DNA of 64,000 bases from contig JACPDN010000011.1 in assembly GCA_016183985.1 (NCBI GenBank), positions 124,001 to 188,000 of the forward strand, given 5' to 3'. The DNA comes from Pseudomonadota bacterium (lineage in GTDB: Bacteria; Pseudomonadota; Alphaproteobacteria; Dongiales; Dongiaceae). Both the position numbers and the translations under genes were made by a program. A model generated the notes under the pieces. That model made no database searches, had not been told where the DNA came from, and saw only the letters and a program-made list of their open reading frames with translations. The stretch's first letter is position 1; the number at the start of each line of letters is the position of its first letter. This document shows positions 38,093 through 41,106 of this stretch, piece by piece.

Positions 38093-38737
38093 TTAATCCG
38101 CCTTCTGTCCCGCCTTGGTGAGCTGTTCCAATTGGCGCTGCAAGGCCTGCATCTGGGCCTTCAAATCGGAGAGTTCCTCACCGCCGCGGGCGGGCGCTTC
38201 GGATTTCGCATCCATGGCGGGCGCCGCCGGGCCGGTCGAGCCGACCTTGAACGGGTTCCACATGCTCATCGCCTGCTGGAAGAAGGCCATGTTCTGCTTC
38301 GACATCTCTTCGAGACGGTCGAGCGGCAGGACGTTGGCGAAGTTCTCCTTCATGTACTGGCGGATCTGATCCTGATTGGTGGCAAAGCTCTCCATGCTCT
38401 TTTCCAGATAGCCTGGAACCAGGAATTGAAGATTGTCGCCATAGAGGCTGATGAGCTGGCGCAGGAAATTGATGGGCAGCATGTTCTGCCCCTTCGATTC
38501 CTCTTCGACGATGATCTGCGTCAGAACCGAGCGGGTGATGTCCTCGCCCGATTTCGCATCCTCGACCGTGAAATCCAAGCCCTCGCGCACCATCTGCGCG
38601 AGATAGTCCAGCGTCACGTAGGAACTGGTGGCCGTGTTATAGAGACGGCGGTTGGCGTATTTCTTGATGCGGACTGGCGCCTGCTTGTCGCCGGCTTTCG
38701 CTTGGTCGCCCTGTTTCTGGTCACCTGGCACAGCCAT
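38093..38737 (-). CDS. phaR: Polyhydroxyalkanoate synthesis repressor PhaR
   Basis: A 214-residue regulator. The N-terminal DNA-binding/PHB accumulation domain reads VRIKKYANRRLYNTATSSYVTLDYLAQMVREG near residue 25, then two PHB_acc repeats including LLPINFLRQLISLYGD-like NMLPINFLRQLISLYGD, and a coiled-coil tail (LKAQMQALQRQLEQLTKAG). PhaR binds both DNA and PHB and represses phasin and synthase genes until polymer forms. ATG 38737 is six bases after GGGGAG; the Met codon just before it is too close. It is divergent from the PhaE-like/PhaC-like pair across a 232-bp gap with TGC-rich symmetry. Confidence 0.93.
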   Translation of the reverse strand: MAVPGDQKQGDQAKAGDKQAPVRIKKYANRRLYNTATSSYVTLDYLAQMVREGLDFTVEDAKSGEDITRSVLTQIIVEEESKGQNMLPINFLRQLISLYGDNLQFLVPGYLEKSMESFATNQDQIRQYMKENFANVLPLDRLEEMSKQNMAFFQQAMSMWNPFKVGSTGPAAPAMDAKSEAPARGGEELSDLKAQMQALQRQLEQLTKAGQKAD

Positions 38738-38800
38738 CATGTACTCCCCTGCGGTAAAACCTTTTGGCACTGGCTTTTTGGCGCGGTGCAGCAACATTTT

Positions 38801-38827
38801 TGCGGAATTCATTCCGCAGCATGCTGC
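38801..38827. promoter_or_regulatory. TGC-rich palindromes, candidate PhaR operator
   Basis: TGCGGAAT-TC-ATTCCGCA (38801-38818) is a perfect inverted repeat, directly overlapped by the palindrome GCAGCATGCTGC (38816-38827). More GCAGCA/TGCAGC words lie from 38788 to 38846. PhaR of Paracoccus is known to bind TGC-rich sites, and this cluster is in the divergent phaR/pha gap. Confidence 0.55.
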
Positions 38828-38969
38828 AGCATGGCAGGTGCAGCATAGCATTAGTAGAGGGGCATATGGCAATGCGGTCGCTGCAACGCGAAACAGCTAC
38901 CCACGCAGGTGTTAGCATCAGCAGCATGGCCGGGTTTCCAGCCCCTGCCCGACCGGCTATAGTCCCTAA

Positions 38970-39551
38970 ATGACTGATGAAACGGGAAAGCAGGGCGCGG
39001 GCTCCGAAAAGCCCGACAACGCGCCCGATCTAGATGAATTGGCGCGGCGCCTGCTCGATCTGTGGCAGGACCAGCTCTCGGCCGTTGCCGCCAATCCGGA
39101 TCTCGCCGCCCAGGCCGCGCGCCTGATGGCGGCGATGCCGCTTCCCGGCATGTGGCTGAGCCAGCTTGGCCAGATGGGCCAGGCGGGGGGTTCGGGCGAT
39201 GACCTCACCAAGGCCTGGACCCGGATGACGCAGAATTGGATGACACAGGATTGGTGGAAGGGAGCCCCGCATGGCGGCGCAAACGGAGCCCAAGAAGGGC
39301 GAGAAGCATCGCCAGATTTATCGGCTGGGGCCACGCCCACTGCCACAGCATCTCAGCCTCGCGGCAGCGACCTGGACGAACTCGGCCGCCGCCTTGCCGG
39401 CATTGAACAGCGCCTTGCAGAATTGGCGCAGCCCAAGCCCAAACGTGCCGCCGCAGCCAAACCTCGCGCAGTTGCAGCAAAGCCTCGCCGCACTCGCACC
39501 GCAGATCGCCCAAGCGGATCCGGCGGAACTGATGAGGGCTCTGCAGGCTGA
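38970..39551 (+). CDS. PhaE/PhaM-like PHA synthase accessory protein
   Basis: A 193-residue protein. Residues 20-100 are helical and amphipathic (DLDELARRLLDLWQDQL ... WTRMTQNWMTQDWWKG), similar in type to small PhaE-like partners. A disordered linker follows, then a short coiled coil (DLDELGRRLAGIEQRLAELAQ, about 135-153) and a basic Ala-Lys-Pro-Arg tail (about 154-179) like the nucleoid-binding tails of PhaM and PhaF. From residue 101 on, its DNA is shared in another frame with the phaC-like gene (39271-39551). The role as synthase activator or granule-nucleoid linker is inferred from position and composition. Confidence 0.65.
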   Translation: MTDETGKQGAGSEKPDNAPDLDELARRLLDLWQDQLSAVAANPDLAAQAARLMAAMPLPGMWLSQLGQMGQAGGSGDDLTKAWTRMTQNWMTQDWWKGAPHGGANGAQEGREASPDLSAGATPTATASQPRGSDLDELGRRLAGIEQRLAELAQPKPKRAAAAKPRAVAAKPRRTRTADRPSGSGGTDEGSAG

Positions 39552-40569
39552 AGGCCGCCGCCGCTTCGGCCAATTGCTGACCGGCATCGAGGCCTATCGC
39601 CAGCATCCATACCAGCGCGACCTGCCGCTGGGCCCGGTCCTCTGGGATCAAGGCACGACTAAGCTGCGCGATTATCGCAGCGCGCGGGAAAAGGCGAAGG
39701 CACCACGGCCGCGCGTCCTGGTCGTCCCGTCGCTGGTCAATCGCTATTACGTGCTGGATCTCGAACCCCAGGCTTCGTTCCTGCGCTGGCTCGATGCCAA
39801 TGGCTTTGACCCCTTTGTCGTCGATTGGGAGGCGCCGGGTTATGTCGAGCGTAGCTTCAACCTCACCGACTACATCGCCGGCCGGTTGGAAGATGCGCTC
39901 GACGCCGTAAAGCGTGAACCGGGTGGGCCGATCTTCGTCATCGGCTATTGCATGGGCGGCAATCTGGCCCTGGGCCTGGCGCTGCGCCGGCAAGCCGATC
40001 TCGCCGGGCTGATATTACTGGCGACACCCTGGGATTTTCATGCCGAGAACCCGTCACACGCGCAGATGATGGGCCAGATCGGACGCCAGCTGGAACCGGT
40101 CCTGCAGATTCTGGGCGAGTTGCCGGTCGACATGCTGCAGGCCTTCTTCTCCGGTCTCGATCCCTTCCAGGTGCTCAAAAAATTCCAGTATTTCGGTACG
40201 CTCGATCCCACAAGCGGTGGCGCCCGGCGCTTCGTGGCGCTGGAGGATTGGCTGAACGACGGCATCAGCCTGGCGGCACCCGTGGCGCGCGAATGCCTGA
40301 CCGGCTGGTATGGCGAGAACAGCCCGCAAAAGCTTGCCTGGAAGATCGCCGACAAGCCGGTCGATCCGGCCGGCTTCGACCGCCCGACGCTCAACGTCAT
40401 ACCGAGCGCCGACCGCATCGTACCGCCCGGCAGTTCCCGCGCCCTCACCCGCCGCTTCCGCTTGGTCGACGAAATGGTGCCCAATGCCGGGCATATCGGC
40501 ATGATGGTCGGCCGATCGGCCGCGCGCGACGTGTGGGAGCCGCTCGCGGCCTGGATGCGGCAACGATGA
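39271..40569 (+). CDS. phaC: PhaC-like polyhydroxyalkanoate synthase (class III-like)
   Basis: A 432-residue alpha/beta-hydrolase-fold protein with the PHA synthase lipase-like box G-Y-C-M-G-G (nucleophilic Cys in place of Ser), the Asp in SADRIVPPGS, and the catalytic His in NAGHIGMMVG. The length is nearer class III (about 355) than class I (about 590), plus an N-terminal region. ATG 39271 has AAGGGAG six bases upstream, and the N-terminal RPLPQHLSLAAATWTNSAAALP segment looks like that of alphaproteobacterial homologues. So the first 94 residues overlap the PhaE-like frame; a shorter start at ATG 39532 is the alternative. The gene ends in a bidirectional terminator. Confidence 0.78.
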   Translation: MAAQTEPKKGEKHRQIYRLGPRPLPQHLSLAAATWTNSAAALPALNSALQNWRSPSPNVPPQPNLAQLQQSLAALAPQIAQADPAELMRALQAEGRRRFGQLLTGIEAYRQHPYQRDLPLGPVLWDQGTTKLRDYRSAREKAKAPRPRVLVVPSLVNRYYVLDLEPQASFLRWLDANGFDPFVVDWEAPGYVERSFNLTDYIAGRLEDALDAVKREPGGPIFVIGYCMGGNLALGLALRRQADLAGLILLATPWDFHAENPSHAQMMGQIGRQLEPVLQILGELPVDMLQAFFSGLDPFQVLKKFQYFGTLDPTSGGARRFVALEDWLNDGISLAAPVARECLTGWYGENSPQKLAWKIADKPVDPAGFDRPTLNVIPSADRIVPPGSSRALTRRFRLVDEMVPNAGHIGMMVGRSAARDVWEPLAAWMRQR

Positions 40570-40632: not shown

Positions 40633-40932
40633 CTAGCGCTTCTGATCCGGTTTAATCCCGGTGCCGTGGCTCTGGCCTGGCTTCTGACCCGGCTGGACGA
40701 CCTTACCGTCGCCATCGGTATCCTTGCCGACCATGTCCCGGTCGCGTTCGCTACCTTGCTGGGATTGCTGGCGCTGACGATCCGCGTCAGGTTTCTGACC
40801 TGGCTGGCCCGGTTGGCGCTGCGGGTTACCCTGCTGCTGCTGGTTCTGCCGCTCGCGCTCATTCGGATTCTGCTGATTCTGCTGGTTCTGCTGAGCCGCG
40901 CGCGGGTTTTCGGGGTTCGGCTGATTGGCCAT
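40633..40932 (-). CDS. Low-complexity Gln/Asn/Pro-rich disordered protein
   Basis: A 99-residue protein from ATG 40932 (AAGGA eight bases upstream), made of Q, N, P, R, G and K with runs such as QQNQQNQQNP and QPGQPGQKP and no hydrophobic core. It is intrinsically disordered and hydrophilic, like stress-induced hydrophilins or glutamine-rich spacer proteins. It contains one DTDGDGK stretch that resembles a Ca-binding loop. The opposite strand is open but encodes only leucine runs, the antisense of CAG codons, and is rejected. Confidence 0.6.
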   Translation of the reverse strand: MANQPNPENPRAAQQNQQNQQNPNERERQNQQQQGNPQRQPGQPGQKPDADRQRQQSQQGSERDRDMVGKDTDGDGKVVQPGQKPGQSHGTGIKPDQKR

Positions 40933-41106
40933 AACGTCATCCTTTCCTTGGCTTTGGAAATTGGACGGCCGGCAGGACGCCGACTGCACCGACTCAACGG
41001 CGCTGCCACAGAAATGTTTCTCCGATAACGGCCCCGAAGGCCGTGACATTATGCCCGTGGATGAGCTAAGCCTGAGGCCCTTTCGCATCCGCAGCAAAGC
41101 TCCTCC

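Follow-up and report, generated by a model that had tools for sequence, protein, structure and literature searches.

Two-subunit PHA synthases are the closest described counterparts of the locus reported here. In class III, a second protein, PhaE, stands alongside a short PhaC with a Cys-Asp-His triad; the C-terminal half of PhaE, judged by eye from 20 sequences, runs from a DLW-type helix through an ELD..HRRI..L coiled coil to a tail that is often rich in Ala, Lys and Pro. The class IV enzyme of Bacillus consists of a 22 kDa PhaR partner and a short 41.5 kDa PhaC, as given in the available text of PMC6403647. PhaM of Ralstonia eutropha, which partners a class I PhaC, carries a basic Lys/Ala/Pro-type C-terminus, and lysines in its C-terminal PAKKA motifs attach granules to the nucleoid (PMC9049629, available text). 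Several phbC copies have been described in Azospirillum brasilense and a plasmid-borne phbCAB operon in A. baldaniorum (PMC10383645, in part), and Rhodospirillum rubrum phaC1 (Rru_A0275) belongs to a phaC1-phaA-phaB operon (PMC4026134, in part).

Standard annotation omits long overlaps in bacteria, and few long overlapping genes are considered fully established in the abstract of a 2022 paper (PMC9927249). The titles and abstract openings of the open-licence papers listed on PhaC overlaps, on PhaE, PhaR and PhaM, on Azospirillum phaC and on bacterial overlapping genes contain no description of the overlap analysed here, and the main text of a paper on SAR11 phaCAB (PMC12113158) has no word beginning with 'overlap'.

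Results

Layout of the locus

The locus lies in a 64,000-nucleotide stretch of DNA from a member of the Dongiaceae, which was analysed as a whole and is called the window; all positions refer to it. A sequence-only reading had proposed a 281-bp overlap between two genes of the window, and both open reading frames were found where it had placed them, on one strand and in different frames.

38093–38740 (start approximate), minus strand: phaR, PHA synthesis repressor, divergent neighbour (TIGR01848, 148.3 bits, cut-off 109.45)
38935–38963, plus strand: predicted sigma-70-like promoter, TTTCCA-17 nt-TATAGT, with TATAGT at 38958–38963
38970–39551, plus strand: ORF-A, proposed small PHA synthase subunit, ATG start, 193 aa, without known family
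39030–39134, plus strand: N-terminal helices of ORF-A, motif LARRLLDLWQDQ..AxxANPDLA (34-member alignment; AlphaFold helices at residues 21–41 and 43–55)
39258–39264, plus strand: candidate phaC ribosome-binding site AAGGGAG, from sequence, AAGG spacing 9
39271–40569, plus strand: phaC-like PHA synthase gene, ATG start, 432 aa, triad C227-D381-H408
39271–39551, plus strand: ORF-A/phaC overlap, read as dual-coding from redraw tests and substitution pattern
39322–39351, plus strand: N-terminal PhaC motif RLGPRPLPQH (R18–H27), within the overlap; R18, P21, P23 and H27 invariant in 15 sequences
39363–39428, plus strand: coiled-coil helix of ORF-A, residues 132–153, within the overlap (alignment; AlphaFold block with pLDDT 80–95)
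39429–39548, plus strand: basic Ala/Lys/Pro/Arg tail of ORF-A (AlphaFold predicts no helix, at low confidence)

The overlap measures 281 nt from the phaC start at 39271, or 230 nt when counted from the R18 codon (39322), and its register places PhaC codon position 3 on ORF-A position 1 and PhaC position 2 on ORF-A position 3. The repressor gene phaR lies upstream of the pair in the opposite orientation. Between phaR and ORF-A, at 38782–38852, we observed TGCAGCA/TGCTGCA repeats and palindromes, for example TGCGGAAT-TC-ATTCCGCA at 38801–38818; given the binding preference of PhaR, these repeats are possible PhaR operator sites. Directly 3' of phaC, a minus-strand open reading frame (40633–40935) encodes a Gln/Asn/Pro-rich low-complexity protein with no Pfam match.

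The product of 39271–40569 is a PHA synthase by its fold, its triad and its PDB relatives. C227, D381 and H408 are invariant in a 15-sequence PhaC alignment, giving the Cys-Asp-His triad and G-x-C-x-G-G nucleophile of an alpha/beta-hydrolase; the protein exceeds the Pfam cut-offs of Abhydrolase_1 and PhaC_N, and its best PDB matches are PhaC structures. It scores under the cut-offs of the class III model TIGR01836 (158.2 bits, cut-off 365.3) and the class I model TIGR01838 (90.7 bits, cut-off 622.65), and likewise under that of the class II model. A second PhaC-like match in the source genome lies in a 639-codon open frame (G000:C10), with 37% identity over query residues 121–246.

Occurrence in relatives

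A protein search of relatives gave a PhaC match (E ≤ 0.001) in 46 of 61, with some matching other PhaC-type proteins only, and a search of 387 alphaproteobacterial genomes gave a match at E ≤ 1e-40 in 164. Named genome contigs were also scanned and the best 80 loci taken, which include Azospirillum, Magnetospirillum, Nitrospirillum, Inquilinus, Roseomonas, Acidisoma, Thalassospira and many MAGs. A first set of 132 loci was pooled from the searches, with duplicates present (e.g. L004/L053 and L017/L056). Using a profile of 34 ORF-A members, drawn from the window and the same loci and hence built partly from the loci it counts, we found the overlap layout in 144 of 168 loci, counting a match at E < 1e-3 in the +2 frame across the N-terminal region of PhaC: 130 from the first set of 132, 11 from a set of 20 chosen for their divergence and 3 from a further 16 (four fillers excluded). 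A strict DLWQ-type motif placed ORF-A in the +2 frame of phaC, extending past R18, in 115 of the 132 loci, and ORF-A was seen by eye in 15 of the remaining 17, the exceptions being L024 and L030. The ORF-A stop lies 155–240 nt 3' of the R18 codon in most loci, the overlap is kept at 40–45% GC (L139, L153, L142, L151), and an ORF-A match at E ≤ 1e-9 coincides with a phaC match in 28 of 28 genomes.

The long overlap is absent from 24 of the 168 loci. In seven of these (L024, L030, L148, L150, L184, L185 and L190) a short ORF-A ends near the PhaC start, which makes the dual-coded module separable from the rest of the protein, and 17 have no significant ORF-A match, the nearest miss being L183 (E 0.0044); the coiled coil and tail are thus dispensable in some loci. 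Two genomes also have weak ORF-A profile matches (E about 1e-5) on the other strand, immediately upstream of the phaC locus (G010:C1:4975292-4975627 and G014:C1:5102675-5102935); these are perhaps the coiled-coil end of phaR. One locus (L129), titled Mycobacterium sp. KBS0706, has a PhaC core about 90% identical to that of Inquilinus limosus (L106), and the record may be misnamed.

In three Azospirillum records, out of seven plasmid matches, phaC is named 'alpha/beta fold hydrolase' and begins upstream of R18, with phaR upstream of it and an acetyl-CoA acetyltransferase gene followed by phbB downstream. ORF-A is present in the DNA of all three and absent from their gene tables, which are stated to be incomplete; consecutive locus tags presumably leave it no slot. 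Standard annotation appears to miss ORF-A.

Selection on both frames

An overlap HMM built from 28 training loci was used to score 69 test loci, which remained of the 132 after removal of 4 lacking or broken loci, the 28 training loci, 10 too near to the training set and 21 near-duplicates. Synonymous codons were then redrawn from the same gene with one protein held fixed, and the other frame was scored. With PhaC fixed, the score of the ORF-A frame dropped from 53.3 to 17.0 bits, and the real score was reached by none of 200 redraws in 65 of the 69 loci; with ORF-A fixed, that of the PhaC frame dropped from 68.6 to 18.0 bits, and the real score was never reached in any of the 69. A control run of 100 redraws covered three phaC windows outside the overlap, each in two alternative frames, as well as the third frame of the overlap. 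The six window/frame combinations dropped by 3–13 bits (median z 0.5–1.7; real score never reached in 2–17 of 69 loci) and the third frame of the overlap from 56.2 to 37.0 bits (z 2.2; 27 of 69), compared to a fall from 56.9 to 18.4 bits for the ORF-A frame in the same run (median z 5.2; 65 of 69). Since the control frames drop too, the shared-ancestry background is not nil, yet the ORF-A signal stands well above it.

Substitutions were compared in 25 close pairs with 70–98.5% PhaC identity, each locus being used once. In the part of ORF-A upstream of the overlap, variation reached 0.286 at its own third positions versus 0.092 and 0.154 at the other two, indicating that ORF-A is coding outside the overlap too. 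Fourfold sites of PhaC differed at 0.215 (171/794) inside the overlap versus 0.333 (1519/4563) outside, and those of ORF-A at 0.082 (68/827) inside versus 0.294 (178/606) outside. The loose motif hits a chance match in a few loci (e.g. L034, L049, L072), which adds noise to the substitution, promoter and start-codon counts and leaves the count of 144 unaffected.

The frames of the overlap are almost certainly both protein-coding and both kept by selection, as judged from these sequence comparisons. The sequence-only reading had taken both frames to be coding and had proposed an alignment of orthologues with a check for selection on each; with that check now run, each frame's score collapses on redrawing and fourfold sites are constrained, so that purifying selection, by which bacterial overlapping genes are judged, was found in both frames. 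The overlap recurs in relatives beyond chance in the profile and redraw tests, and the proposed link, by way of shared DNA, between the synthase and an accessory-type protein gains support from the selection tests together with the 144 loci. We also considered that only PhaC is real and that ORF-A is an open frame produced by high GC and PhaC codon bias, given that GC-rich genomes leave long spurious frames and that many such ORFs are listed for the window. This explanation was rejected on the redraw tests and substitution pattern and is also contradicted by the profile matches, by the placing of the promoter described below and by persistence at 40–45% GC; we consider it extremely unlikely.

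Start signals

In the window, the phaC start is preceded by AAGG at a distance of 9 nt and by GGGAG at 6 nt. Across 127 loci, an ATG in the PhaC frame lies at most 20 codons upstream of R18 in 96, compared to 5 for the third frame (in-frame stops ignored). A Shine-Dalgarno match of at least 4 precedes 42% of the nearest in-frame ATGs (n = 106); the figure is 18% for out-of-frame ATGs (n = 186) and 23% for random positions (n = 2120), so that PhaC starts show a modest Shine-Dalgarno signal. From where the start codons fall, PhaC is predicted to start inside ORF-A, in agreement with the internal start that had been proposed for the window.

Two other accounts of PhaC translation bear on this point. 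If PhaC started only at 39532 or later, an outcome that the sequence-only reading had named as fatal to its claim, ORF-A alone would use the overlap; class III PhaC proteins of the outgroup do begin roughly 30–35 codons before the conserved core, near the end of ORF-A. We rejected such a late start, to which we give next to no credence, because R18, P21, P23 and H27 are conserved without exception in 15 sequences, the PhaC frame collapses on redrawing, and the ATGs are placed upstream of R18. Alternatively, PhaC could be made mainly as an ORF-A'-PhaC fusion through +1 ribosomal frameshifting within the overlap instead of internal initiation: the frames are related by +1, a start codon is absent within 45 codons of R18 in 3 of 127 loci, and a locus of GC 0.29 (L138) has a weakly ORF-A-like N-terminus in the PhaC frame (0.6 bits; 25 of 2000 shuffles as good), which weakly hints at a natural ORF-A/PhaC fusion. 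Against frameshifting, which we regard as improbable, start codons are enriched just upstream of R18, and 107 of 127 loci have a PhaC-frame stop 3' of the ORF-A motif.

At the other end of the locus, 72 of 127 loci have a TATANT hexamer 5–8 nt ahead of an ORF-A start codon, versus 0 of 1599 control ATGs, and 84 of 127 have a looser -10 hexamer at the same spacing, versus 4 of 1599. This comparison somewhat favours the loci because several start codons were tried for each locus and one for each control; no hexamer was found in 32 of the 127. With a -10-like box at this distance, transcription would be expected to start at or next to the ATG, which suggests that the ORF-A mRNA is leaderless.

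The ORF-A protein

In the alignment of 34 ORF-A members, an N-terminal helix (PDLxxLARRYLDLWQDQxxAxAADPxLA) is joined by a variable linker to a coiled coil (DLxxLxRRLAxLExRxAxLE), and most members end in a basic tail; this bears out the coiled coil and basic tail first noticed in the window. An AlphaFold model of ORF-A has a mean pLDDT of 69 and is confident only at the first helices and the coiled coil; a Foldseek search with this low-confidence model gave no match among PDB folds. The ORF-A of the window has no match in Pfam or NCBIfam at E ≤ 1, and at E ≤ 0.1 the 34 members match 14 Pfam and 10 NCBIfam families, none of them PHA-related. The class III PhaE model PF09712 is not among these families, nor does it match anywhere in the source genome, and the absence of any PHA-related family from the matches extends to the class IV PhaR subunit, whose model belongs to the library searched. 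The commonest weak Pfam match is the coiled-coil model DUF7310 (16 of 34 members, best E 0.0038), and among PDB sequences matching ORF-A, designed or generic coiled coils predominate (best E 0.00017). Assignment to a curated family was dropped, the family matches being weak and the commonest of them a coiled-coil model. Comparison of ORF-A with 20 PhaE sequences by hhalign was likewise weak (E 0.0049 local and 0.0032 global, with probabilities of 7.2% and 4.1%). Of the earlier label 'PhaE/PhaM-like', the resemblance in the layout of elements therefore stands, and homology to PhaE or PhaM is not established, given the weak PhaE profile comparison and the lack of PHA-related Pfam or NCBIfam matches.

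The last 30 residues of ORF-A carry a net charge of at least +3 in 109 of 127 loci. The net charge of the tail averages +5.7 compared to the +2.9 expected from PhaC coding alone, with p < 0.05 in 40 of 91 loci, suggesting a tail only moderately more basic than PhaC coding would force. Such a tail would suit a granule/nucleoid adaptor, that is, a truly dual-coded ORF-A acting as a PhaM- or PhaF-like tether whose tail binds DNA and whose Trp helix binds the granule. The basic tail in most loci and the PAKKA lysines of PhaM favour a tether of this kind, but some loci have a short or weak tail (e.g. L018, L025, L037), and the excess basicity reaches significance in fewer than half of those scored; we regard a tether as a possible but doubtful role.

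Discussion

We lean, with modest confidence, towards a single mRNA that yields two proteins from overlapping frames, with ORF-A as the small activating subunit of a two-subunit PHA synthase. Transcription would begin at the ORF-A ATG, so that ORF-A would be translated from a leaderless message, and ribosomes would initiate PhaC about 300 nt downstream at an internal start codon. By analogy with PhaE in class III and PhaR in class IV synthases, ORF-A would activate PhaC; its N-terminal Trp helix and coiled coil may bind or order PhaC, and its basic tail may touch an acidic partner, either DNA, as in PhaM, or a granule component. The overlap would couple both proteins in expression and inheritance. 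Since PhaM both activates PhaC and tethers granules, the subunit and tether roles are compatible.

A tree of PhaC cores, built with a quick method and SH-aLRT supports only, comprised 133 rows: 107 with the overlap, 23 without it and 3 from the class III outgroup (which includes L158), seven rows (L017, L056, L086, L101, L113, L124 and L153) having been set as overlapping by hand. The overlap label needs 7 changes on this tree, in which several rows are long and deep forks weak. One group of 32 rows (SH-aLRT 90, not starred) holds 21 of the 23 overlap-less rows along with 11 that have the overlap, and takes in families whose ORF-A is short (f41, f170, f173) as well as one lacking ORF-A (f13). 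In the simplest reading, the overlap arose early and was then lost several times. By codon usage, a test confounded by the wobble base of ORF-A being PhaC codon position 2, PhaC would be the older frame in 119 of 127 loci, and the class III outgroup, whose PhaC lacks the extra N-terminal segment, suggests the opposite, that the ORF-A frame is older.

The published work on R. rubrum may concern an orthologous synthase. On the coding strand, a reverse primer for R. rubrum phaC1, in the available part of PMC9999600, encodes VEDWLN. Of 132 PhaC proteins in the overlap family, 108 contain EDWLN and 1 contains VEDWLN; EDWLN is found in 0 of 20 class III loci, in which phaC may be truncated. From this primer-encoded motif, R. 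rubrum phaC1 is likely orthologous to the phaC of the window. The accessible text of PMC4026134 describes phaC1 as expressed between its annotated start and stop and, at least 50-fold overexpressed alone, as raising PHA about 1.4-fold, while still calling it a significant contributor. If the genes are orthologous, that expression was done without the ORF-A partner, and its absence could explain the weak effect. According to the same part of PMC9999600, the phaC1 transcript was undetectable under the conditions used and PhaC2 is less active than the other two synthases, which would make PhaC1 active in some assay, perhaps without a partner.

More broadly, we see it as an even call whether the locus represents a distinct and widespread alphaproteobacterial class of two-subunit PHA synthase, with an overlap that arose early and was kept across many families, and in which the subunit ratio is fixed by a first cistron on a leaderless message and by internal initiation of the synthase. 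The second subunit would then have been overlooked, its gene being overprinted on the beginning of phaC. If this holds, the overlap would be, to our knowledge, one of the long same-strand overlaps with the deepest conservation in bacteria. ORF-A/phaC is a long overlap for which many families support selection on each of the two frames, and it joins two proteins at one pathway's gene; it offers a natural model for two proteins evolving in one stretch of DNA, and ORF-A is a testable candidate for a missing subunit in bioplastic research.

Compared to the class III PhaE-PhaC system (TIGR01836, PF09712), the locus has the same combination of a short PhaC with a Cys-Asp-His triad and a second protein alongside it, and ORF-A repeats the order of elements seen in PhaE. 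It differs in the extra N-terminal PRPLPLHL segment of PhaC, in the overlap of the genes in two frames, in a PhaC score under the TIGR01836 cut-off and in the lack of ORF-A matches to PhaE models. With class IV PhaR-PhaC it shares a small partner and a short PhaC, but ORF-A has no PHA-related NCBIfam match. The likeness to PhaM, drawn from its description, lies in the basic C-terminus and the PhaC partner, which for PhaM is a class I enzyme. The rnpA and rpmH genes of Thermus are likewise long same-strand overlapping genes that encode two proteins in different frames, whereas ORF-A and PhaC look like two proteins of PHA synthesis, and their overlap is common to many alphaproteobacterial families.
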